A DNA stretch of 64,000 bases from Trichothermofontia sichuanensis B231 (lineage in GTDB: Bacteria > Cyanobacteriota > Cyanobacteriia > B231): the NCBI RefSeq assembly GCF_026240635.1, contig NZ_CP110848.1:126501-190500 (forward strand). The letters run 5' to 3'. The translations under genes and the position numbers were made by a program. A model generated the notes under the pieces. That model saw only the letters and a program-made list of their open reading frames with translations. It did no database searches and was not told the origin of the DNA. Shown here in pieces: positions 10,429 through 49,454 of this stretch; position 1 is the stretch's first letter, and each line of letters begins with the position of its first letter.

Positions 10429-10810
10429 GGGGCTGTAACGGTTTCGACGTGGTGGCGAACACTGTTCCGTGATTCAGGCCGAGAGTGAGTCTCCTCTCGT
10501 AAATCCAAGGCTCAAAAAAAGTAGATGCGAACAACATCGTTCCTTTTGCTCGTAAGGCAGTTGCTGTTGCCTAATTATCCCTAACAAGGTGCGAGCGTCT
10601 GTAGTCCGACTCCGTTAAGGGCTACGGACCAACCCCAACGGATGCTCTAGGGTGGTGCCTCTGGTCGCCCCTTAGCTAAGACTCACCAGAGTCCCTGACC
10701 GGGTAGGGTTAATACCAGGTCCCCGCACTGAGGGTCAGAAGTGCTAAGCCTGTGAACGATCGGAAGGTTAATACCCATTGCGGACGGCAGTTCGATTCTG
10801 CCCAGCTCCA
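10429..10810 (+). ncRNA. ssrA: tmRNA (one-piece)
   Basis: This RNA rescues stalled ribosomes and adds a degradation tag. The 5' GGGGCTG pairs with the 3' CAGCTCC to form the tRNA-like acceptor, and the T arm reads GGCAGTTCGATTCTGCC. The tag reading frame runs from GCG at 10527 to TAA at 10572-10574 and encodes ANNIVPFARKAVAVA, matching the cyanobacterial tag pattern. CCA is not encoded. Length is 382 nt. The last base directly touches the stop codon of the convergent GH116 gene. Confidence 0.97.
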
Positions 10811-14454: not shown

Positions 14455-14911
14455 CAAAACTCGAACTGCCCTCACCCCAATCCCTTGAACCAGGATTGTG
14501 GGTTGAAGTCCCTTCGCCTCTGGTGGGAGAAGGGACTTAGGGAATGAGGGGAAAAGATTGGTCAGTCAACCAACACCTTAACCTTAACGTAGGGCTGATT
14601 TTGATCGATTGCTGTTATTTAGCAATGATTTAGATAGAGCCTCGACTAGTAAATCCCATGTGATCGCAACAGAGGGATAGTAACTTAGCAGTAGCAGGTA
14701 CTCCCGATCCTGCTCAGATTGTTCCCCTACCTTGCTTTCAACATACGCAGGCTTGCCTGAAATGACAGACTAATTTTCCCCGGCTTGCCCAGATAAATTT
14801 ACTTGACGTTGATTACCAAATTGGCATTAGCACCGATAATAATGATAGGGGGAGGGCAATCGTCCTCAACGCGCAAGGATTGCTTGAGTACCGTGAGCAA
14901 GGCATAGCAAT
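14455..14911. repeat. Gene-free gap with family C repeat
   Basis: About 14468-14573 is a G/C-rich repeat (CCCTCACCCC..., then AGTCCCTTCGCC...GGAGAAGGGACTTAGGG and GGGGAAAAGATTGGTCAG). It recurs twice at about 49300-49430. The remaining roughly 330 bp up to the next gene show no gene or RNA that I can recognise. Confidence 0.6.
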
Positions 14912-15356: not shown

Positions 15357-16334
15357 CTACCGCAACACCAACGGCTTATACGGCACTCCCTCTTGCAAAT
15401 GTCGCGCCATTAACCGTGCCTGTAACTCGATTGCCCGTCGATAGGTACAGCGATACTCAAACACGGGATGCTTAAACTCGTCATTCAACTTGCGCTCAAA
15501 CGCCTGCAAAAAGACCTTCCGTCCCGACTCCGACAACAAAAACGCCCCCAAACTCTCCGTAAAATCCGATCGTTGAATCTCCCGATTATTAATTACCGCT
15601 AGCACCACGTTATCCACTATCAACGGACGAAACTCCTCCATCAAGTCCAGCACCATCGCTGGTTGCCCCCGGTGCACCTCATGTAAAAAACCCACATACG
15701 GATCAAGCCCTGCCACATTCACTGCTGCCGTCACCTGCACCCGCAATAGCCCATAGCCAAAACTCAATAGCGCATTCACTGGATCTGTTGGAGGCCGCCG
15801 ATTCCGCCCCGCAAACCCCCACTCGTTGGCCAGCATTTCCTGCCAGCACCCAAAATACTCCCGCGCTGCCATCCCCTCCATTCCCCGCACTTGGTCCAAC
15901 GACTCCTGCCGCCCCACCCGCTTCTTCCACTCCTTCAACCCATTTCCCCGCTGTCCATGTCTATATAACACGGCATACTGATTCTGAATCTTCCCTGCCG
16001 CTATCGCCTTCACCAATGCCAACCGTCCCTCGGCATCGAGATACCGCCCATACTGCGCCAACCGCAACAACCCATTGCGCGAATCATGTGGCAATGCCGC
16101 CCCCAAATACCGCCCAAAACTCGATAAAAAATGCACTGACATCCCCAACTCCAGCGCATACATCAACGCATCCCCTGAGACCTGCGGATTCCCCATCAAC
16201 ACCATCTGCTGCACCGTCTGCGCTGGAACCGATCGCTTCTCCCACGACCCATCCTCCCGTTGCAACGTCACCGTAAACGCCTCATACGCCTTACCCACCA
16301 TCGCATTCGGCTGCAATACATAAAGCACTGTCAT
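15357..16334 (-). CDS. cas1: CRISPR-associated endonuclease Cas1
   Basis: Cas1 is the integrase that inserts new spacers, normally with Cas2. The 325-aa protein has an N-terminal beta domain and a C-terminal alpha domain. Catalytic-type residues are visible: Glu in RGMEGMAAREYF at about residue 150, His in GFLHEVHRGQPAM at about 218, and acidic residues in LDLMEEFRP just after. AGGAGG lies about nine bases before the ATG at 16334, which is preferred over the TTG at 16340. It is the last gene of the cas8-7-5-6-4-1 operon. No cas2 frame follows, which is unusual. Confidence 0.93.
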   Translation of the reverse strand: MTVLYVLQPNAMVGKAYEAFTVTLQREDGSWEKRSVPAQTVQQMVLMGNPQVSGDALMYALELGMSVHFLSSFGRYLGAALPHDSRNGLLRLAQYGRYLDAEGRLALVKAIAAGKIQNQYAVLYRHGQRGNGLKEWKKRVGRQESLDQVRGMEGMAAREYFGCWQEMLANEWGFAGRNRRPPTDPVNALLSFGYGLLRVQVTAAVNVAGLDPYVGFLHEVHRGQPAMVLDLMEEFRPLIVDNVVLAVINNREIQRSDFTESLGAFLLSESGRKVFLQAFERKLNDEFKHPVFEYRCTYRRAIELQARLMARHLQEGVPYKPLVLR

Positions 16335-16340
16335 TCCCAA

Positions 16341-16566
16341 AACCTCCTAAAACTCAATAACCACAAAACAATATCCCCCCCCTCCGTAGGAGAAGAACTT
16401 TAGCGAGTTCCCCTTCACCCCTAGTGGGAGAAGGGGGTAGGGGATGAGGGGGAAGACCCGTTAAATCCTTTTTTCGGATTCGTAACCCATATACCTAGTG
16501 GGCGAAGGGGTTAGGGGATGATGGGAAGACTGACCAAGCGAGAAAACCCCCAACTCCCCTTACCCA
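16341..16566. repeat. Repeat-filled gap between cas4 and cas1
   Basis: This 226-bp gap contains two degenerate copies of the CCCCTTCxCCC...GGGAGAAGGGG hairpin repeat found elsewhere in the window (near 16376-16460 and 16495-16530). No cas2 remnant is visible in any frame. Confidence 0.55.
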
Positions 16567-17160
16567 TCAGAGAGCAGGCTCAGAGCTGAGAGTTGCTAAC
16601 ATCTCCACCTCAAAGGGCAAACAAATCCCCACCAAACTACACGCTTGACATTTCCGCTTATTCGCGATCGGACCTGGCATCGGTAACCCCATTGCTACCC
16701 CCGCTGCAGCGATCGCCCCCTCCGTCGCCGCCCGCAACTCCGGCGTAAACCACACCACCTGTCGCCGCCGATTCCCGTGATAAAAAATCTCGCCAAACTC
16801 AATCACCCGTCCTGTGCGCTCCTCCAAACACATCCCCGCCGCACACAACTGAAAATGATCATTCAAATGCCGTGCCATCCGCCCCTTCTTATACTCCAGT
16901 GGCACCAACAACCCCTCCCGCTCCTCCACCCCATCAATAATCCCCTTCACCCCCAACCGCTCACTCCACACCCACTGCTGTCGATGCAACACCACCTCCC
17001 CCTCTAGCACCACCCCCATCTCATCAATATTGCGATGCAAATGCGTCCCCAACACCGTATGCTCATTCTCCGCCCACTCCCCCAACACATACTCCAGATA
17101 AAACCGCCGCGGACAATACTCCCAAGCATTCAAATACGCCAACGGCAAAAATTCATCCAT
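16567..17160 (-). CDS. cas4: CRISPR-associated exonuclease Cas4
   Basis: Cas4 trims prespacers and helps select the PAM. The 197-aa RecB-type nuclease shows a first cysteine in YCPRRFYLEY (about residue 17). The nuclease Asp is in KGIIDGVEE, followed by LVPLEYKKGR, which supplies the Glu and Lys of the D...ExK motif. The C-terminal cluster cysteines are in KRKCQACSLVGIC. Length is normal. It follows cas6 by about 65 bp and precedes cas1 after a repeat-filled gap. Confidence 0.93.
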   Translation of the reverse strand: MDEFLPLAYLNAWEYCPRRFYLEYVLGEWAENEHTVLGTHLHRNIDEMGVVLEGEVVLHRQQWVWSERLGVKGIIDGVEEREGLLVPLEYKKGRMARHLNDHFQLCAAGMCLEERTGRVIEFGEIFYHGNRRRQVVWFTPELRAATEGAIAAAGVAMGLPMPGPIANKRKCQACSLVGICLPFEVEMLATLSSEPAL

Positions 17161-17225
17161 AACGCCAAACCTCCAATCAATACTCCCCCTCGCCCATCTT
17201 GGGAGAGGGGGTCGGGGGGTGAGGG

Positions 17226-18236
17226 CTACATCAACCGCGCCTGTCCCATCCCCATCGCCGTCTTGCGGCCAACCCCCGCAAAAAACGCAAAATGCGCCAA
17301 AATTGTCGCCAAGCGTGCCTGCTCTTCATCCGGAAAGCAATAGCGCACCCACCCCGACGCCCCAATCTCCGACCCACCCTCCATCCGCAACGCCCGCGTC
17401 TTCAACTCAAACGCGGCTGTCAACCCCTCCCACACCACCGGCCCGATCGCCAACTCCGCCGGCGCAACCCCATTCCAGCGCCGCCGCAAATTCTCAAACA
17501 CCAACTCCGGCAACAAAAACGGCTGCACATACCCATCCAACTTAAAACTCGTCGGCGTAAACAACCGCAACTGCAACTCCCGCTGCACCGGCACCGCCAT
17601 CAACTCCTCAAACCGACGCGCCTCCACCAGCTGCACAAACCGCCCCAACCGGCAGTTAACCCCCGCCAGCGTTATCATCCCCCCCAAATCCCCACTCATG
17701 CCCCACAACAACGGCGCTAACAGATCCGATCGCAACAACCCCACCCGCAACCACTGCTCCCCCGACTTCGCCCGAATCAACGTCACCGTCAACGGCATCG
17801 ACTCCTGCCCATGCAACCCCACCGCCAAATCCGGATCAGCCGCCGCCAGCCACCGAAAACACTGCCCATGCAACGCCCGCCCCACCGTCGGCGGCAACGA
17901 CGCCTCACTCTCAACGGGCACCTGGATCACCCGCAACGGGCACCGATCCACCTCCACCCCCGCCACCGTATACAACCGCCCTAACCAACTCACTGCCGTC
18001 TCCAGACCCACTTGCGCCTGTACCTGCTGCAACAGCGCCCCATACCCCGTCGCCCTGGGCAACACCGGCATCACCCGCACCCCGCCGCCATCCTGTAACG
18101 ACACCCACACCGGTTCCGGCTCCACCCCCGACAACCACTGCTGCAACGGCACTGACGGCACCGACGCATCCGTAAATCGCAACACCACATTGACTCCTGC
18201 CAACCCTGAGGCAACCTTACCTTCAACCCTTTCCAT
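17226..18236 (-). CDS. cas6: CRISPR pre-crRNA endoribonuclease Cas6
   Basis: Cas6 cuts the CRISPR precursor RNA within the repeat. The 336-aa protein has the Cas6 C-terminal RAMP domain: PTSFKLDGYVQPFLLPELVF at about residue 230, and the glycine-rich loop FFAGVGRKTAMGMGQARL at the very C-terminus. The N-terminal half is Val-rich and divergent. It lies between cas5 (65 bp upstream) and cas4. With no array nearby, its natural substrate is unknown from this window. Confidence 0.88.
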   Translation of the reverse strand: MERVEGKVASGLAGVNVVLRFTDASVPSVPLQQWLSGVEPEPVWVSLQDGGGVRVMPVLPRATGYGALLQQVQAQVGLETAVSWLGRLYTVAGVEVDRCPLRVIQVPVESEASLPPTVGRALHGQCFRWLAAADPDLAVGLHGQESMPLTVTLIRAKSGEQWLRVGLLRSDLLAPLLWGMSGDLGGMITLAGVNCRLGRFVQLVEARRFEELMAVPVQRELQLRLFTPTSFKLDGYVQPFLLPELVFENLRRRWNGVAPAELAIGPVVWEGLTAAFELKTRALRMEGGSEIGASGWVRYCFPDEEQARLATILAHFAFFAGVGRKTAMGMGQARLM

Positions 18237-18301
18237 ATACCTACCTTCATCCCTGCGTGCCTTAGTGCCTTAGTGTCGAAAAAAAGCCCAACCTTAAGCA
18301 A

Positions 18302-19003
18302 TCAATACCGTTCATACACGTCATACTTAGCCCCCGTCGATCGCAACCGCAACGGCAGCAACCCTGTCCCAATCACCCGATCGCGCCCCACCTGCGCCTT
18401 CTCCCCCGAAAACGGATTAATCCGCCCAAACGTCGCGCTCGGCCCCAAATCATCCCACGGCTGCACCATAAACCCCGCCTCCCCACCCATCACAAAACTG
18501 GGTTCCGCCGTGTAACGTATTGCCTCTGGCAAAAACTGAAAAAAACACCCCCGCTTCCCAAAATAATTAATCTCAGCAAACAACCCCGCCAACACCTCCG
18601 CCCGATCGCTCGGCCCCACACAAATCTGCAAATTCCCCTCCAAAAACACCCACTCCCGAAACACAAACCCCGATTGCATCGGTAACGTCTTCCGGCCCTT
18701 ATCCTGCTTATCCAACACCTGATCGTAATAACGCAACGTATAGCCATTGCGATTCACCACCAACCGCTCCGGCGGCAACACATAAACCGTCAACCCCCGA
18801 ATCCACTCAAACTGCGGCCTCAACCAAGCCTCCCAGCGATCGCGCCGCCCATACCCCTCCCGTTCCAACAGCACTCGCAACAGCGCCATCTTAATCGCAT
18901 AGGGCGTCGGCACCAGATTCGATCGCCCCGCCATACTCGTCGCATCCGATCGCTTGAGCGAAAACAAACTCACCGGCTGATAACCCACCGTCAACCAAAC
19001 CAT
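18302..19003 (-). CDS. cas5: Type I Cas5 (Cascade subunit)
   Basis: Cas5 caps the 5' handle of crRNA in Cascade. The 233-aa protein is a RAMP protein by context and overall pattern: early MAGRSNLVPTPYAIKMALLR, which is typical of type I-A/I-B Cas5, and a C-terminal G-x-G-L-L-P-L-R-L-R strand. The longer frame starts at 19036 inside cas7. The ATG at 19003 follows the cas7 stop and has AGGGGCG six bases upstream, so it is the likely start. Without a profile search, assignment rests on operon position and these features. Confidence 0.8.
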   Translation of the reverse strand: MVWLTVGYQPVSLFSLKRSDATSMAGRSNLVPTPYAIKMALLRVLLEREGYGRRDRWEAWLRPQFEWIRGLTVYVLPPERLVVNRNGYTLRYYDQVLDKQDKGRKTLPMQSGFVFREWVFLEGNLQICVGPSDRAEVLAGLFAEINYFGKRGCFFQFLPEAIRYTAEPSFVMGGEAGFMVQPWDDLGPSATFGRINPFSGEKAQVGRDRVIGTGLLPLRLRSTGAKYDVYERY

Positions 19004-19016
19004 TGTCGCCCCTGCC

Positions 19017-19967
19017 TTAACCCGCGGTGACATCACGCCCCTCCCACACCTGCGCCACTTCTAACAATTCCTCAATACACGCCCCAAATTGAGCAAAACT
19101 TTCAAACGGATACAGATGAATCGTCCCTTCCCCATTCATCCGATTCAACGTTTCCGCCAAATCTGTCACCTGTCGTTGATAACTCTCCACCTGCAACGGA
19201 CTCACCATCGGAGCCGGACAGCGTTTTGTACTCACCGCCATCACCCCCTCAAAATGATCCGGGTGCGGCAAATGCGTATTCCGCTTCGCCCCATTCGGCT
19301 GCAAATAGGTATACAAAACACTTCGCAGCAACGCATCCAACCGCTGCTTCCGTTCCTCAGTTGAAATCGCGTAATCAAAACTGTGGGGATTATAGCCAAT
19401 CCGAAACGCCTCAATATTCAGCACCGTCGCATACAACCCCGAACTTACCTGCACATTATAAGGCGTCGGATTTTCCACCCCATACTTCGCATGAAAATAG
19501 CTCTGCGTCTTAACAAAACTGGGCACTCCCACCACTGCCCCAAACTCAATCACCGACTCCCGCTTCAGCGTCTTCCCCCCCTTCTCCGTCACCATAAACC
19601 CTTCCAAATCACTCAGCGCACACCGCTGCAACACCTTAGCCGTTTTTTCCGGCAACGCATCCTGAGCCGCAAACAGCGGCAAATTCTGATCAATGTCATA
19701 CCCAACCCGATCCGGATCAAACCGCTTACCCCCCTCCGACAACGCCAACCCCATCTCCACACAAACCCGTTGCAAATGTTCCGCCTGAATATGCTTCAAC
19801 ATATCCCCCGAAACCCCATTCACCAACTTCGGTTCCGCATCCCCCTTCGCCACAATGTAGTACCGCCGCGTCAACGACTGATTCCCCTCATTCCCCTCAT
19901 TATTCAGCGCATGAAGTTGCCAAGACAACAACCCACTCAACGAAATCGAAAACACCCGAAAACCCAT
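19017..19967 (-). CDS. cas7: Type I-B-like Cas7 (Cst2/DevR family)
   Basis: Cas7 forms the Cascade backbone along the crRNA. The 316-aa protein shows the DevR/Cst2 signature LHALNNEGNEGNQSLTRR at about residues 19-36, followed by NGVSGDMLKHIQAEHLQR, both diagnostic for the family. The chosen ATG at 19967 has AGGAGA about nine bases upstream; the frame itself opens at a TTG at 19985. cas8 ends 53 bp upstream and cas5 begins immediately after. The family is shared by type I-B, I-A-like and I-MYXAN systems. Confidence 0.92.
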   Translation of the reverse strand: MGFRVFSISLSGLLSWQLHALNNEGNEGNQSLTRRYYIVAKGDAEPKLVNGVSGDMLKHIQAEHLQRVCVEMGLALSEGGKRFDPDRVGYDIDQNLPLFAAQDALPEKTAKVLQRCALSDLEGFMVTEKGGKTLKRESVIEFGAVVGVPSFVKTQSYFHAKYGVENPTPYNVQVSSGLYATVLNIEAFRIGYNPHSFDYAISTEERKQRLDALLRSVLYTYLQPNGAKRNTHLPHPDHFEGVMAVSTKRCPAPMVSPLQVESYQRQVTDLAETLNRMNGEGTIHLYPFESFAQFGACIEELLEVAQVWEGRDVTAG

Positions 19968-20038
19968 CTTCATTCTCCTAATCAACTCAGTGAACCTTCG
20001 TGTCCTTCGTGCCTTAGTGGTTTCCTACCAACTATCCT

Positions 20039-21853
20039 CTACTCATCCCCATCCGCCTCCTCAACCGCGATCGCATCCTCCGCATCCCCCTCCCTAGCCT
20101 TCGTCCACCGCGCATACCCATAAGCAATCAACAAATTCGCCACCAACCCATGATCATGCTCACTAACCAACCGCACCAACCCATCCAGATCCGCCTTCGT
20201 CGGCCACACCCGCCGCAACGTCCTCCCCTCCCTCTGCAACTGCTCCGCAATCCGCAAATTCTCCGCCTCATACCGCGCCAAAAAATCCGCGATCGCACTC
20301 AAAAACTCCGTCTTCGATCCCGACTGCGTACTCAACCGCTGCGCCAAACCATACTGCCGCAACCAATCCAACTCAATCACTTGCCCCTCCGCAATTCGTA
20401 CCTTCCCCGCATACACCGTAGACTGATTAATCGCCTTCGCCACCCGGAGAAAACTAGGGTCCTGCACAATCTTCAAAAAATCATCATCAGCCTTACTCAT
20501 CAGATTTAAACCCTCCACAGAAAACAACCTTGGTGGCCGCGCCTTTGGGTCAGCCAACTGCCGCACCACATAATCCGCATAACTTACCTGAAACCCGAAA
20601 AACGCCCGCAAACTCCCACTGGCAATAAAATCCCGATAACTTGCCAACAACTCCCCCTCCCCCGCCTCCACCGACAGCGATCGCACCACCGCCAAATGCT
20701 CATTCACCAGCTCCTGATAAGCCACCACCTCCGCATAATCCACCGGTGCAATCCACCCCGGCAACCCCAAACTAAACACCTCCTTCACCCCATACACCTG
20801 CCCCTTCGAGTTAAAATGCGTCCCACTAAACCCCGTCACAAAATCATTCAACGGCTTCCCTCGCCGCCGCCGTCCCCTAAACCCAGCCACCTCCCCACGA
20901 TTCGCCTTGGCTGGATGGTGATCGAGCAACTCCTGGCAAAACCGCAAAATCAACTCTGCATCAAACCGGGCCACCCCATACCCTGCCCCCGGGAGATTCA
21001 CCTGCCGGAGCTTAGCCCACACCTGCTGATAGGTTTGCCAAGCAATATCCTTAGGAATCAGCGCCACCACCCGCCAGTCATACCCGCGCTCCGCCACCTT
21101 CACCCGTTCTGCCAACCCCAGTTGAAACAACCCCGCTGCAATCAACCACAAACTGAGCCAATCTATCTTCTGCGGCTCCACCTTATTCGTATCCGCCTTC
21201 GCCCGATTCACCCCCTGCACTGTTGTCGGCAGATAAACCTTTACCGCACTCGCCGGGGGTGGCACCGCACAGCCCGCCGACTGCAACCGATCCACTACCT
21301 GCGCGATCGCCGCCTCATGACTTAGTGGTGGCTCCTGACTAAAAGCCCGGATTAACTCCGCCACCAACAGCCCATAGTGTTCCCGTAGCTCCCAAGCCCC
21401 CAACCACAGGTTATTATGGTTGCTATCGTGGCGCATCGCAGTCAAAATCACCCCATTTTGCGTCCGGGCATCCGGCGGCTCCGGCATCTCCTCCGGGCGA
21501 TCAGTGGCCAACCGTTGCTGATTGCGATACTCCCGATAAACCTTCCGCCGCTCCGTTTGTGCGACCACATCAAACGCTGACACCAAGTCCAACGGCAACT
21601 TAGCCACATTCGTCTTTCCCCCCTGCACCGGTGGAAACGGATTGGGATTCCCCGGCGGCAAATGAGCGATCGCCGCCACATCGATCGCCCGGTTAAACAC
21701 CAAACCAAACCCACTCCCCCGATCCACTAGCTGGCTATCTACCTGCTGCTGACTCCGACGCAACGCCTCCTCCACTACCAGCGCTACCCCCAACGCCCCA
21801 AACACATCCGCATAGGTATTAAACCGCTTCGGAATCACCAACCCGTGCACCAT
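20039..21853 (-). CDS. cas8: Type I Cas8 (Cascade large subunit)
   Basis: A 604-aa protein that begins the operon and occupies the position of Cas8, the PAM-sensing large subunit. It starts MVHGLVIPKRFNTYADVFGALGVA, a cyanobacterial Cas8a/b-type opening. No HD or helicase motif is present, so it is neither Cas3 nor Cas10d. A basic patch (FRGRRRRGKPLND, about residue 325) could contact nucleic acid. The ATG at 21853 or the GTG at 21859 may start it. The call depends mostly on the neighbouring cas7-cas5-cas6 genes. The subtype is best described as I-B-like. Confidence 0.8.
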   Translation of the reverse strand: MVHGLVIPKRFNTYADVFGALGVALVVEEALRRSQQQVDSQLVDRGSGFGLVFNRAIDVAAIAHLPPGNPNPFPPVQGGKTNVAKLPLDLVSAFDVVAQTERRKVYREYRNQQRLATDRPEEMPEPPDARTQNGVILTAMRHDSNHNNLWLGAWELREHYGLLVAELIRAFSQEPPLSHEAAIAQVVDRLQSAGCAVPPPASAVKVYLPTTVQGVNRAKADTNKVEPQKIDWLSLWLIAAGLFQLGLAERVKVAERGYDWRVVALIPKDIAWQTYQQVWAKLRQVNLPGAGYGVARFDAELILRFCQELLDHHPAKANRGEVAGFRGRRRRGKPLNDFVTGFSGTHFNSKGQVYGVKEVFSLGLPGWIAPVDYAEVVAYQELVNEHLAVVRSLSVEAGEGELLASYRDFIASGSLRAFFGFQVSYADYVVRQLADPKARPPRLFSVEGLNLMSKADDDFLKIVQDPSFLRVAKAINQSTVYAGKVRIAEGQVIELDWLRQYGLAQRLSTQSGSKTEFLSAIADFLARYEAENLRIAEQLQREGRTLRRVWPTKADLDGLVRLVSEHDHGLVANLLIAYGYARWTKAREGDAEDAIAVEEADGDE

Positions 21854-22152
21854 ACCCACATTCCCCGATACGACTTCCCCTATCCGTAGCCAATTAGTAC
21901 ATAAAAACTAAAAAGATAAGGCCAAACCTCTCCCCCGAACCAGATCGTCAGTCAGGTTCACCCGCATCATTTTCCCCATTATGCACAATGCTGGAAGTAG
22001 CCTCTTCCGATTCAAGGCTCTGGGTACAGGTCAACCAACTCTGGCCGGACAACCGCATCCCCTGGGACGAACAGGCACGGTCTCCAGCACCCTGTCTTGA
22101 TGAATGTCGGGTCAATGATGATGGGAGGAGTTGTCACAACCGGGGTAAGCTG

Positions 22153-32111: not shown

Positions 32112-33926
32112 TTATTGGGATCGATCGATCTTCAGCACGGCCATAAAGGCGGATTGGGGCACTTCCACTGACCCCAGGGCCTTCATCCGTTTTTTCCCCT
32201 TAGCTTGCTTTTGCAGGAGTTTCTTCTTCCGGGAAATGTCACCGCCGTAACACTTGGCTAACACGTCTTTACGCAGGGCAGGGATGTGTTCACTGGCAAT
32301 CACTCGACTCCCGATCGCCGCTTGGATTGGAATCTTAAACTGGTGACGGGGAATCTCTTCCTTAAGCTTTTCTACCAGTGCTTTGCCCACATAGTAGGCT
32401 TTGTCACGATGGACGATCGTGGCCAGGGGATCAACCCGATCATTGTTAATGAGAATATCCAGCTTGACCAGATCATCTTCGCGATAACCAATGAAATGGT
32501 ATTCCATACTGGCGTAGCCGCGCGATCGCGACTTCATTTGATCGAAATAGTCCGTCACCACTTCTGCCAGGGGAATCTCATAGATCAGGGTCGTGCGCGA
32601 TGGCGTGAGGTATTTCATGTCTTTGAAAATGCCCCGCCGGCTTTGGGCTAATTCCATCAACGCTCCCACGTAGGTTTCTGGTGTGATCATGTCAACCTGA
32701 ACGTAGGGTTCTTCGATCTTCTGGCGATATTGGGGATCAGGTAATTTACTCGGATTGTCGATATAAATCACTTCCCCATCCAACAGCGTAACCCGATAGA
32801 TTACCGAGGGAGCCGTGGTGACCAGATCCAGGTTATATTCCCGTTCCAAGCGTTCCTGGACGATTTCCATGTGCAGCAACCCCAGAAAACCACACCGGAA
32901 CCCAAACCCCATTGCGCTAGATGTTTCGGGTTCATAGTGCAGGGCAGCATCATTAAGTTTTAACTTTTCCAGGGCTTCCCGCAAATCTTCAAATTGATCC
33001 GCATCGCTGGGGAAGAGGCCGCAAAAAACCATTGGTTTGGCTTCGGTATAACCGGGGAGGGGTTCCGCTGCCGGGTTATTGGCGAGGGTAATGGTGTCTC
33101 CCACCCGGGCATCTTCCACGGTTTTAATGGCAGCGGCTAGGTAGCCCACTTCGCCCGCATGGAGGGTATCCACGGGGACTTGCATGGGGGCTAAAACGCC
33201 TAACTCGTCGATCTCATACTCTTTCCCAGAGGCCATCAGGCGCACACGATCGCCCGTTTTCAGGGTGCCATCCATGACCCGAAAATAAACGATAACGCCA
33301 CGATAGCTGTCGTAATAACTATCAAAAATCAATGCCCGGAGGGGTTCGTCCACCGTATCGCGTGGGGGGGGGATGAGGTGGACAATGGCCTCTAGGATTT
33401 CGGGTACCCCAATGCCTTCCTTAGCCGAGGCTAAAATCGCGTGGGAGCAGTCGAGACCGATGATGTCTTCAATCTCTTGTTTGACACGATCGGGTTCAGC
33501 ACCGGGCAGATCAATTTTATTAAGAACGGGGATGATTTCGAGATCGTGTTCTAGGGCAAGGTAGACATTGGCAAGGGTTTGGGCTTCGACCCCCTGGGAG
33601 GCATCGACGACAAGTAAAGCGCCTTCGCAAGCGGCCAGCGATCGCGAGACCTCGTAGGAAAAATCGACGTGGCCGGGGGTATCGATCAAGTTCAACACGT
33701 AGTTCTGACCGTCTTGGGCCTGGTAGTCCATGCGGGCGGCTTGCAGTTTGATCGTGATCCCCCGCTCCCGTTCGAGTTCCATGTTGTCGAGGAACTGGGC
33801 TTTCATTTCGCGATCGGCGACGGTACCGGTAGCCTGCAAGAGCCGGTCTGCCAGGGTGGATTTACCGTGATCGATGTGGGCAATGATCGAAAAGTTGCGG
33901 ATTTGGGCAACAGGGACTTGGGTCAT
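32112..33926 (-). CDS. lepA: Elongation factor 4 (LepA)
   Basis: LepA/EF4 is a ribosome-binding GTPase that acts on stalled or mis-translocated ribosomes. The 604-aa length is normal. G-domain motifs are AHIDHGKST (about residue 16), DTPGHVDF and NKIDLPGA. The family-specific C-terminal domain includes [29 protein letters not shown] and [21 protein letters not shown]. It is divergent from the GH38 gene, with the CRISPR-like repeat in between. Confidence 0.97.
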
Positions 33927-34008
33927 AGGGTTTTAGGTAAATCCCCAGGGGATCATGGATTAGACTGCTGATGCTTAACATATTTTAATGCCTTTTCCCC
34001 TTTTCCCA

Positions 34009-34116
34009 ACCCCCCACGAACGGGGATCGAAGAGAGGAGTTGGATCGGCACTCTGCTTTACAAAAGCAGAGTAAAGCTGCCACCCCCCACGAACGGGGAT
34101 CGAAGAGAGGAGTTGG
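34009..34116. CRISPR. Two-repeat CRISPR-like unit with a palindromic spacer
   Basis: An identical 35-bp sequence occurs at 34009-34043 and 34082-34116 (begins ACCCCCCACGAACGGGGATC, ends GAGAGGAGTTGG), separated by 38 bp. Repeat and spacer lengths are those of a CRISPR array, and the repeat holds a CCCC-ACGAAC-GGGG hairpin followed by ATCGAAG, like the 3' part of cyanobacterial repeats. The spacer is itself a hairpin: CTCTGCTTT (34051-34059) pairs with AAAGCAGAG (34063-34071). With one spacer and no cas genes beside it, it could be an orphan mini-array or another duplicated element between divergent genes. Confidence 0.45.
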
Positions 34117-34203: not shown

Positions 34204-37200
34204 ATGTCGTCAATGTCTCCTATGCCTGCCAATACGATCGTCCCTCCCGCAATTCCCCAAACGATCGCCCAGTTAGCCCAATGTAGCCGTTGTTCTTGTC
34301 AGACGCAGTGGCATGTTCAGATCACGCCGTCGGGGAGTGTTGTCCCACTGGCAGGACCGGGTAGACCGGATGGGTGGGAAAGCTGGCCGATCGCGACGCT
34401 GAATGGGAAGGGGCATCTGGCATGGCCCAAGGGGCAGCAGGAAGCCTGGTTTGTACAGGCAATCCTGATTCCTAGTCAGTTGCAGGGATACCCGATCGCG
34501 GGCCTCAGCTTACGGCTGGCGCTCCACTGGTGGGCGGAAGTGGCGGAGGTCTGGGTGAATGGGGAATTGCGGCAGGTTGGGGATTTATTTGACTGCAAAA
34601 CCCGTGTGTTATTGAGTGAGGCGATCGTGCCGGGGATGATGTTTCGGGTGGCTGTCCGGCTGGTAAGTCCGGGGCATGATCCGGGGGCATTGGTGGCGTC
34701 AGAGTTAGTTGTGGAAAATCCTGATTCAGAGGCTCCGGAACCGGGGTTTGTGGCGGATGAATTAGCCGTGATTACCCAATATCTCCAGACGTTTATCCCA
34801 GAACAATTGCCCACTTTGGCGACGTATTTAATGCCGATCGCAGAAAAACTATCAGCAATGGCAACTCAGATGAGCGGCGATCGGGCTGAGTTTGATCGTT
34901 GCCTTGCCGATCTGCGCCAACAGTTGCAAACCTGGGAGATTCAACCAGGGCAAACGTTACCGTATTGGTTGAAACAACGCCAGATTGGGCTTTTAGGTCA
35001 TGCCCATTTAGATCTAGCATGGTTATGGCCGATCGCGGAAACTTGGGAAGCGGCTGAACGGACCTTCACTTCTGTGCTCAATTTACAAGCTGACTTTCCT
35101 GAATTGATTTTTGGTCACTCCAGTCCAGCGTTGTATGCCTGGATAGAAACCCATCAACCTGAACTATTTGAGCAAATTCAAGCCCAGGTTAAGGCAGGTC
35201 GTTGGGAGATCATCGCCGGACTGTGGGTGGAGCCAGATTTGAACCTAATTCAGGGTGAATCTTTGGTGCGGCAAGTCCTCTATGGACAACGCTATGTCCA
35301 GGAAAAATTTGGGTTGTTGAATCGCATTGCCTGGTTACCGGATAGCTTTGGCTTCTGTTGGCAATTACCCCAGATTCTCCGGCAAGCGGGGATTGATTAT
35401 TTTGTGACCCAAAAGTTGCGCTGGAACGACACGACCCAACCCAGTGAGGATCTGTTCTGGTGGCAGTCCCCCGATGGGAGTCAGGTGTTGAGTTTGATGT
35501 CGGCCCCGATCGGTGAGGATATTTCTCCAGTCAAAATGGCCACCTATGCCTGTGAGTGGGAACAAAAAACAGGAGCGTTAAATGCCCTCTGGTTACCGGG
35601 TGTCGGTGATCATGGCGGCGGACCCACTCGCGATATGTTGGCAGTGGCGCGTCGTTGGCAGCGATCGCCCTTTTTCCCACAATTAAAATTTCAAACTGCC
35701 CTGGAATTTCTGGATCAATTCAAAAATAAAGATTCAAAATTCAAAATTCAAAATTCGGAACTGTATCTAGAATTCCATCGAGGATGTTATACAACCCATG
35801 CGGATCAGAAGGCATGGAATCGTCGCTGCGAAACGCGACTCTATGAGGCGGAATTGTTTGCATCGCTTGCCCAGATGATTGCTGTAGGAGCAGGCGAAGA
35901 CCGGACCAATGACATCGCGACGACTAAAGCGCAATTAACCACGGCTTGGCAACAGGTTTTATTTAACCAGTTCCATGATATTTTGCCCGGTACGGCGATT
36001 CCAGAGGTCTATGCCGACGCCGATCGCGCTTGGCAGGCAGCAGAACAAACGGCCCAGAGGATTCTTGATCAGGCGTTGACCGATATCAGCGATCGTATCG
36101 CTCTGCCTGAACCGCCGGTGACGGGCGCAATTCCCTTAGTGGTGTTTAACAGTTTGAACTGGGCGCGATCGCAGGTGGTTAGCGTGACCGTTCCGAATGC
36201 TGATGCCCAATGGCAAATTTACGATTTGGCCGGTCAACCGCTCCCCACCCAGCCGATTACACCCGAAGCTCACACCGATCCGCCACAAATTGCTTTCCTC
36301 ACGCCCCCAATTCCTGGCGTCGGCTATCACCTTTTCTGGCTAGCCCAACACCCCTCACCGCCTAACTCTAAATCTAAAAATCTAAAATCTAAAATTCCCA
36401 AATCTCAAATCCCACTGGTGCAGCGCACAGGGGCCTACACCCTGGAAAATGCCTATTTACAGGTCAGTATTGATCCGGCAACAGGCGATCTCAGTCGGGT
36501 GTGGGATAAACTGACGCAGCGGGAAATCCTGAAAGCACCCGGAAATCAATTACAAGCCTTTAGGGATGCTGGCCAGTATTGGGATGCCTGGAACATTGAT
36601 CCAAACTATGCTCAACATCCTTTGCCGCCGCCTGAACTTCAGGTCTTGCAGTGGCTAGAAACAGGTCCTGTACTTGCCCGATTGCGGGTTATCCGTCGCT
36701 TGGGACAATCCACTTTTTGGCAGGATTATCTTCTTGAGGCCGATCGTCCAGTGTTAATCATTAAAACCAGGGTGAGCTGGCAGGAACGCCATACCCTGGT
36801 AAAGGTGGCTTTTCCCCTCAGTGTGGAAGCCGATTTTGCGACCTATGAAATAGCCTGTGGCGCGATCGCACGTCCCCTGCATTCCACCCAACCGGCTGAC
36901 CAGGCCAAATGGGAAGTGCCCGCCCTCCGTTGGGCTGATTTAACTCACACGCCGAGTGCGCCAGACACCCCGGCTGATCCGCCGGCAATTTATGGGGTCA
37001 GTTTGCTCAATGATGGCAAATATGGCTACGATGCCCAACCGGATCAACTACGCCTCACCCTGCTGCGGGGGGCCACTTGGCCCGATCCAGAGGCCGATCG
37101 CGGCGACCATTACTTTACCTATGCGCTCTATCCCCACACAGGCACCTGGCAGACGGCTCACACCGTCCGGCGGGGTTACGAGTTGAATGTGCCACTTCGC

Positions 37201-37596
37201 CCCCATTTCCTATCTCCGAAGACAGAGCGTTCCCCCTCGGCAACCTTGCCCGCGATCGGGACACTTCTGACCCTACCAGCCGAGAATCTAGTGCTTATGG
37301 CCTTAAAACCAGCCGAGGACTCGACGCAACAATGGGTGCTGCGCGGTTATGAATGCCACGGTCAACCCACCGAGATGCGTCTTAGCTCTGATTTAATGCT
37401 TGTTTTGGGAGCATCCGTTGATTTATTAGAACGATCAATCACAACTGAACCTAACGCGATCGCAGCAAGTGTGATCGCAGCAAGTGCGGTCGTTTCTCCA
37501 AGCCATCTACCGGAAAACGTCCAGCGTGTCTCATCGGTTATCCCCGCTTGGAAAATCATCAGTTATCTTGTCAGCCCAGCCCACAATCATGCTTGA
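34204..37596 (+). CDS. GH38 family alpha-mannosidase
   Basis: A 1130-aa glycoside hydrolase of family GH38, which trims alpha-linked mannose. A beta-sandwich-like N-terminal domain precedes the catalytic domain. The latter shows the zinc motif GHAHLDLAWLWP at about residues 265-276 and the nucleophile Asp in AWLPDSFGFCWQLPQ at about 378. GVGDHGGGPTRD is present, and FNQFHDILPGTAIPEVYADA is typical of GH38. There is no signal peptide. Two AT-rich in-frame insertions (35722-35759 and 36361-36410) encode Lys/Ser/Asn-rich loops and are made of the same short repeat found between genes. Confidence 0.92.
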   Translation: MSSMSPMPANTIVPPAIPQTIAQLAQCSRCSCQTQWHVQITPSGSVVPLAGPGRPDGWESWPIATLNGKGHLAWPKGQQEAWFVQAILIPSQLQGYPIAGLSLRLALHWWAEVAEVWVNGELRQVGDLFDCKTRVLLSEAIVPGMMFRVAVRLVSPGHDPGALVASELVVENPDSEAPEPGFVADELAVITQYLQTFIPEQLPTLATYLMPIAEKLSAMATQMSGDRAEFDRCLADLRQQLQTWEIQPGQTLPYWLKQRQIGLLGHAHLDLAWLWPIAETWEAAERTFTSVLNLQADFPELIFGHSSPALYAWIETHQPELFEQIQAQVKAGRWEIIAGLWVEPDLNLIQGESLVRQVLYGQRYVQEKFGLLNRIAWLPDSFGFCWQLPQILRQAGIDYFVTQKLRWNDTTQPSEDLFWWQSPDGSQVLSLMSAPIGEDISPVKMATYACEWEQKTGALNALWLPGVGDHGGGPTRDMLAVARRWQRSPFFPQLKFQTALEFLDQFKNKDSKFKIQNSELYLEFHRGCYTTHADQKAWNRRCETRLYEAELFASLAQMIAVGAGEDRTNDIATTKAQLTTAWQQVLFNQFHDILPGTAIPEVYADADRAWQAAEQTAQRILDQALTDISDRIALPEPPVTGAIPLVVFNSLNWARSQVVSVTVPNADAQWQIYDLAGQPLPTQPITPEAHTDPPQIAFLTPPIPGVGYHLFWLAQHPSPPNSKSKNLKSKIPKSQIPLVQRTGAYTLENAYLQVSIDPATGDLSRVWDKLTQREILKAPGNQLQAFRDAGQYWDAWNIDPNYAQHPLPPPELQVLQWLETGPVLARLRVIRRLGQSTFWQDYLLEADRPVLIIKTRVSWQERHTLVKVAFPLSVEADFATYEIACGAIARPLHSTQPADQAKWEVPALRWADLTHTPSAPDTPADPPAIYGVSLLNDGKYGYDAQPDQLRLTLLRGATWPDPEADRGDHYFTYALYPHTGTWQTAHTVRRGYELNVPLRPHFLSPKTERSPSATLPAIGTLLTLPAENLVLMALKPAEDSTQQWVLRGYECHGQPTEMRLSSDLMLVLGASVDLLERSITTEPNAIAASVIAASAVVSPSHLPENVQRVSSVIPAWKIISYLVSPAHNHA
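35722..35759. repeat. AT-rich short tandem repeat inside the mannosidase gene, copy 1
   Basis: Tandem TTCAAAA units (AAAGATTCAAAATTCAAAAT and on) insert about 12 codons (NKDSKFKIQNSEL) into the GH38 frame without breaking it. The surrounding gene is G/C-rich. The same unit type appears at 36361-36410 and, reversed, at 63840-63885. Confidence 0.75.
36361..36410. repeat. AT-rich short tandem repeat inside the mannosidase gene, copy 2
   Basis: Tandem TCTAAAA units encode NSKSKNLKSKIPKSQIP in frame, between two domains of the mannosidase. It is probably a tolerated linker insertion. Confidence 0.75.
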
Positions 37597-48968: not shown

Positions 48969-49454
48969 AACCTTAAGTGTTTTTTGAATCTTAAATGTTT
49001 TTTATTACTCTTTTGCTTGCGCTTCACTTGACAATTCTATGGGGTGCATCCCACCCTTTAACCAGGGTCTCTCAAAGGTGTGGATCTCGATCCGACCAGC
49101 AGCCCTCATCCCCCAACCCCTTCTCCCAAGTAGGGAGAAGGGGAGCCGGATTTTCAAGTCCCTCTCCCGTTCTGGGAGAGGGATTTAGGGTGAGGGCCGC
49201 ACCAGCAGGCTGCACCCAGCCTAATCCCTATAAAACTGTACTTTATGATTGAGGTAAAAGCTGTATCTCCGTTCTCTTTTCTCTCTCCTTTCTCCTCACG
49301 AAAGGAGAAAAGATTCGTCAAGTAACCAGAGTCTCTCAGCGGCTCAAGTCCCTTCGCCCCTTGTGGGAGAAGGGACTTAGGGATGAGGGGAAAAGATTGG
49401 TCAGGTAACCAGGGTCTCTCAGTTAATATCATGCTCTTACTCAGGCTGCACTAC
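48969..49454. repeat. Gap with MITE-A fragment and two family C repeats
   Basis: About 49076-49263 is a family A MITE with an intact right end (GAGGTAAAAGCTG followed by TA at 49264-49265) but no left end. About 49300-49430 carries two adjacent copies of the family C repeat (TCAAGTCCCTTCGCCCC, GGGGAAAAGATTGGTCAG, AACCAGGGTCTCTCAG). There is no gene in this stretch, which separates the two duplicate GT2 genes. Confidence 0.7.

Follow-up and report, generated by a model that had tools for sequence, protein, structure and literature searches.

A direct-repeat unit between divergent lepA and GH38 genes of a cyanobacterium as a possible scar of off-target Cas1-Cas2 spacer integration

The window analysed here, by which we mean the whole 64-kb stretch of DNA, spans positions 126501-190500 of a one-contig, 4.44-Mb genome whose source, judged from the relatives of its proteins, is a cyanobacterium. 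It also carries a tmRNA gene at 10429-10810 (ARAGORN), with the tag peptide ANNIVPFARKAVAVA. Between two divergent genes, one on the minus strand (32112-33926) and one on the plus strand (34204-37596), named lepA and GH38 in an earlier note on this DNA, lies a direct repeat of 35 bp (copy 1, 34009-34043; copy 2, 34082-34116; no strand is assigned to either) around an insert, or spacer, of 38 bp (34044-34081, likewise without strand). The copies are 100% identical and their start-to-start distance is 73 bp, so that the layout of 35 bp, 38-bp spacer and the same 35 bp given in that note is correct to the base; its placement of the unit between diverging neighbours also holds. This pair is the only exact repeat of at least 16 bp at a spacing of 20-150 bp within the 64-kb window. 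Repeat scores reached at most 15 in 20 second-order Markov surrogates, vs 35 for the real pair, and these scores, with the pair being the sole such repeat in the window, rule out a chance origin. The unit at 34009-34116 is a real, non-random feature. The identity of the two copies suggests a recent event, and copy 1 is read below as a duplicated target site.

The insert contains a perfect hairpin (34050-34072, no strand assigned), with a 10-bp stem in which 34050-34059 pairs with 34063-34072 around a 3-nt loop. The 38-bp spacer folds at -16.0 kcal/mol (z -4.8), and 0 of 200 shuffles were as stable; the folding that had been noted for it is therefore that of a real hairpin. It had also been suggested that GCTTTAC could alternatively pair with GTAAAGC to give an RNA with two folds. 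The 7-bp stem in question (34055-34077, no strand; 34055-34061 with 34071-34077) can form, but it folds at -7.1 kcal/mol, whereas the hairpin stem on its own reaches -12.6 kcal/mol. The alternative is 5.5 kcal/mol weaker and a two-state switch is therefore not indicated. The whole 108-nt unit folds little better than its shuffles (z -1.65), and the duplicated 35-bp site has no more structure than is found in shuffles. On the lepA side, a promoter-like site on the minus strand (33982-34009) touches the edge of copy 1; it is a consensus match only, with 1 found vs 0.3 expected. Copy 2 is separated from the GH38 start by 87 bp. LepA was found in 0 of 99 loci within the fetched flanks of GH38 relatives, and the lepA/GH38 junction therefore looks lineage-specific. 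The duplicated DNA remains intact on either flank, and the tolerance of the insertion may perhaps be owed to that.

With up to three mismatches allowed, a 30-mer of the repeat occurs at two sites in the whole genome, both in 34009-34116. Longer arrays built on the 35-bp repeat, for which a search of the genome had been suggested, are thus absent from it, and BLAST against the same genome returned no second place for the region better than E 0.048. An exact 23-mer of the repeat was absent from viral contigs and from the contigs of 84,980 species, while blastn with the region matched nothing in plasmids, and its phage matches were limited to 19 nt at E 4. Alignments in 58 other genomes all fell within the first 132 of the 441 query bases, which are the lepA end, and the repeat starts at base 150. 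Absence from all arrays, together with dispersal between genes of related genomes, had been named as the finding that would count against a CRISPR-like reading: the three arrays found do indeed lack the repeat, but it is not a dispersed element in its own or related genomes. A dispersed intergenic repeat family was rejected as a candidate, there being no copies of the 35-mer elsewhere in the own or related genomes searched. No source (protospacer) of the 38-bp insert was found in the own genome or in the viral contigs, plasmids and phages searched, and no insert-free site was found among genomes that include no close, same-order relative. A search for a known RNA family or tRNA relic gave nothing above threshold, with no Rfam family at threshold, and no intrinsic terminator was found in the region.

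Three true CRISPR arrays were found in the genome, with repeats of 36, 37 and 36 nt (R1, R2 and R3) and 120 spacers, 118 of which are 34-42 nt long, and the genome holds three cas1 and three cas2 genes. The R1 array (9 repeats of 36 nt) adjoins a cas1-cas2 pair, the R2 array (88 repeats of 37 nt, at 3.66 Mb) adjoins a lone cas2, and the R3 array (27 repeats of 36 nt) adjoins a cas2 and a long open reading frame with a Cas1 match that looks like a Cas4-Cas1 fusion. The R1 module is not very selective in its uptake, because three of the eight spacers of its array (L022 14384-15033) match the chromosome elsewhere at 95-100% and the array also has unusual spacers of 46 and 53 nt.

Within the window, a cas8a-cas7-cas5-cas6-cas4-cas1 operon of mixed I-A/I-D affinity occupies 15357-21859 on the minus strand, which confirms the Cas6 previously placed at 17.2 kb; its cas1 is one candidate integrase. 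No cas2, array or recognised cas3 was seen beside this operon. Its Cas8 occurs in 7 of the 388 class genomes searched, the own genome counted. In three of the six others the fetched stretch contains an array with repeats that end GGGACTGAAAC, like R2, and for the remaining three the view is limited by contig ends or broken genes. In G211, the single genome in which gene order was read, the genes from cas8 to cas1 are followed by cas2 and next by the array; the lone R2-side cas2 matches the cas2 of this intact operon with 78/98 identity. As the relatives adjoin R2-like arrays and the two cas2 genes are this similar, the partner array of the operon is, by sequence comparison, most likely R2, which on a circular contig would be no less than 0.9 Mb distant, and not the 35-mer. 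The CRISPR locus seems to be split, with cas8a-cas1 at 15357-21859 and the lone cas2 and 88-repeat array at L023 7619-14844 (3.66 Mb). The 35-mer shows no likeness to the three true repeats or to the R2-like repeats of the relatives; its best ungapped match to the latter is 15/37, no better than to unrelated repeats.

Solitary pairs of similar size occur elsewhere in the genome. When 0.54 Mb was scanned for exact direct repeats, a second pair (33/38) turned up some 114 bp upstream of the cas2 beside R2, as did a third pair, with a hairpin insert, that spans the start of the R1 cas1. A mismatch-tolerant scan (period 40-160) returned 32 solitary pairs in 1.34 Mb and 14 in a further 0.40 Mb, for a total sample of 1.74 Mb or 39% of the genome, most of which belong to dispersed families or are coding repeats. 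Coding pairs, pairs with at least two copies elsewhere, tandem repeats (L118, L177), a longer duplication (L025) and the pair at window 49303, whose insert is a family element, were dropped; L103 was kept despite one counted match elsewhere and L022 despite an open frame that covers it. Eight pairs were kept under these filters, which were set while looking and are partly post hoc (window 34009, L022, L023, L103, L120, L178, L179 and L183). By strict scoring all eight have duplications of 30-36 bp, and on lenient extension the range is 30-43 bp with 5/8 at 35-37; with window 49303 and L025 restored, nine of ten strict lengths are 30-37. Insert lengths span 18 to 57 bp, and 5/8 are of 34-42 bp under strict or lenient scoring. 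The last 400 kb sampled contributed three of the kept pairs (strict 30/34, 33/21 and 36/57), with a spacer-sized insert in only one of the three. Mismatches between copies number 0 to 6 across pairs, and both duplications and inserts are unrelated in sequence from site to site. Candidate scars thus amount to about 1 per 0.2 Mb of the sample, and two of the eight adjoin cas genes (the cas2 beside R2 and the R1 cas1 start), a share that is not unbiased as the cas neighbourhoods were fetched on purpose.

No known source was found for the kept inserts; phage sources for the L120 and L022 inserts were sought and none was convincing, and no source common to inserts and true spacers was found apart from a single 10-nt match. 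The idea, taken from L022 and L089, that hairpin-bearing inserts form a class was also set aside: inserts at -16 kcal/mol or lower occur in 2/8 kept pairs (window, -16.0; L022, -17.4) vs 5/120 true spacers, an excess that is not significant (p 0.06), and the L089 repeats are members of a dispersed family. A 34-bp insert flanked by a perfect 30-bp duplication lies at L183 9605-9698, at an apparent overlapping stop/start (TAATG) of two reading frames, the frames being read by eye. The genome also contains an abundant dispersed hairpin family, AAGTCCCTTCGCCC...GGGAGAAGGGACTT (window 14506-14543, 16411-16435 and 49340-49385, and many sampled loci), and a second dispersed family that contains TGAGTTTATGGTGGGGGCGCGTAGCGCC.

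Of the 1.57 Mb of other cyanobacterial DNA scanned for comparison, 800 kb came from four genomes, two lacking and two having cas1, 639 kb from the surroundings of GH38 genes on 80 further cyanobacterial contigs, and 126 kb from other loci. Unique non-coding pairs were few; six were used (duplication lengths 17, 22, 28, 39, 53 and 62). A 38/75 pair present in two further copies was excluded, as were members of repeat families and tandem pairs in clusters. Duplication lengths differed between own and control pairs (Mann-Whitney, p 0.006 strict and 0.004 lenient, with control lengths lenient in both). The 30-36 bp cluster was absent from the controls, including both cas1-bearing genomes, where the numbers expected per control are small, and the controls cannot tie the cluster to cas1. 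The 39/39 control pair (L237) is a two-repeat mini-array of ordinary CRISPR look; it lies at L237 6398-6514, downstream of the GH38 gene of an uncultured cyanobacterium.

We tentatively propose, as a possibility that we judge to fall just short of probable, that a single off-target spacer integration, carried out by one of the cell's own Cas1-Cas2 complexes, left 34009-34116 as its scar. A stretch of about 35 bp of ordinary intergenic DNA would have undergone strand transfer at each of its two ends, and gap filling would then have left it duplicated, one copy on each side of the 38-bp prespacer, in the manner of a true array. The product would be a 'neo-CRISPR' seed lacking a leader or cognate repeat, probably with no crRNA processing and no growth, and the hairpin would be an accident of the captured DNA. 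The CRISPR-like geometry to which the earlier note drew attention is probably the key: the 35-bp duplication approximates the host repeat lengths (36, 37, 36), the 38-bp insert is within the 34-42 range of 118/120 true spacers, and the cell has putative adaptation genes (three cas1 and three cas2). Among the enzymes known to us, Cas1-Cas2 is one that could insert about 38 bp with a stagger of 30-36 bp. The difference in duplication length from the control pairs, the two pairs at cas genes and the loose uptake by the R1 module also speak for it. From the observed anatomy, uniqueness, size match, cas1 and cas2 genes and similar pairs we infer Cas1-Cas2 as the maker of these scars.

Several results speak against the proposal. 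No protospacer and no insert-free site came to light in the searches above, insert lengths are spread over 18 to 57 bp, only one of the last three kept pairs has a spacer-sized insert, and the filters were partly post hoc. A target that resembles the repeat or the leader-repeat junction is a preference of such integration and not strictly a defining feature. The duplicated site matches the true repeats at 17/36 at best (P 0.14), no closer than random intergenic sites, and the target sites of 0/7 kept pairs tested fell below P 0.05. According to a passage in PMC6895254, Cas1 prefers guanine at both ends; guanine is absent from the integration ends here, where the 5' bases of the two strands of the 35-mer are A and C. 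The same source describes in-vitro integration at off-target sites, as well as a ruler for the length of the repeat. A section of PMC9456107 has type I-A Cas1 binding stem-loops and a factor proposed to block integration outside arrays, and a statement in PMC11788318, citing Nivala 2018, is that overexpressed Cas1-Cas2 can integrate outside arrays. The work of Nivala, Shipman and Church (2018) on non-canonical integration and neo-CRISPR is cited in passages of PMC9456107, PMC11788318 and PMC11687729.

The main rival to Cas1-Cas2 integration is a duplication linked to repair or replication, in which a staggered break or template switch would copy about 35 bp of flank around a short, sometimes self-complementary filler with no Cas protein involved. 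We consider this somewhat unlikely, even though it would accommodate the strong hairpins in several inserts (-16.0 kcal/mol in the window, -17.4 in L022; p 0.06), the variation of insert lengths from 18 to 57 bp and the lack of a target motif or guanine ends. Against it, strict duplication lengths cluster at 30-36 bp in 8/8 kept pairs, a cluster absent from the other cyanobacterial control DNA, though numbers are small, and we know of no repair process of such a kind that holds its stagger to 30-36 bp. Another possibility is that the unit serves the lepA/GH38 divergent promoters as a regulatory element or small RNA under selection, with the hairpin acting as RNA or operator and the repeats as binding sites. 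Its position between divergent genes, its identical copies and the z of -4.8 for the hairpin would suit such a role; however, the unit is absent from all relatives searched and the gene junction was unseen in 99 other loci, there is no terminator or Rfam family at threshold, the alternative fold is weak and the 108-nt unit has a z of only -1.65, which makes this explanation improbable.

Two further explanations keep the unit within CRISPR proper. It could be the relic of a lost or decayed true array with another repeat type, and the mini-array at L237 demonstrates that two-repeat arrays of ordinary CRISPR look exist. CRISPR repeats are commonly common to related genomes, but the 35-mer is in no other genome or virus searched and the other pairs in the same genome each differ in sequence, and we regard a relic as quite improbable. 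The earlier note had instead raised the idea of an orphan array that serves the Cas6 at 17.2 kb. The unit is on the same replicon, about 12 kb from this Cas6, and its repeat and spacer lengths fit, but the relatives of the operon adjoin R2-like arrays, the R2-side cas2 is that which is 78/98 identical to the G211 gene, and the 35-mer, at 15/37 in its best ungapped match, is unlike the GGGACTGAAAC-ending repeats of those relatives. Use of the unit as an array by Cas6 is therefore unsupported, and we consider it very improbable indeed.

To return to Cas1-Cas2 integration, the other pairs raise the wider hypothesis that the chromosome is a natural fossil record of repeated off-target integrations of different ages, including at cas1 and cas2; this we hold to be somewhat unlikely, but if it were true, the scars would be seeds for possible new CRISPR arrays. 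If the proposal is true, off-target spacer insertion would be a recurrent natural mutation and not just a laboratory effect of overexpressed Cas1-Cas2. Such insertions would reshape promoters and gene starts and could be the birth of new arrays, and they would leave a genome-wide signature to test for, namely unrelated direct repeats of the local CRISPR-repeat length around a spacer-sized insert. Of the explanations considered, stray spacer integration, an event of a kind already described, is the most likely for the unit, and its apparent recurrence in one genome adds interest.

Insertions of transposons or MITE-like elements with target-site duplication also place an insert, sometimes a hairpin, between direct repeats, but the inserts in B231 have no common sequence or ends, and 30-36 bp exceeds the target-site duplications of most transposons. 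The true arrays R1, R2 and R3 have the repeat and spacer lengths of the unit, whereas its repeat is unrelated to theirs, is present in only two copies and has no adjoining cas gene or leader. In the experiments of Nivala, Shipman and Church in 2018, off-target sites reportedly resembled the native array, and putative natural cases are said to have been reported as well. The B231 sites differ from those neo-CRISPR loci in being without likeness to the native array, in having an integrase that is only a candidate and in that several unrelated sites occur in one wild genome, but they have the same construction, in which two copies of a repeat-length piece of ordinary chromosome enclose a spacer-sized insert.
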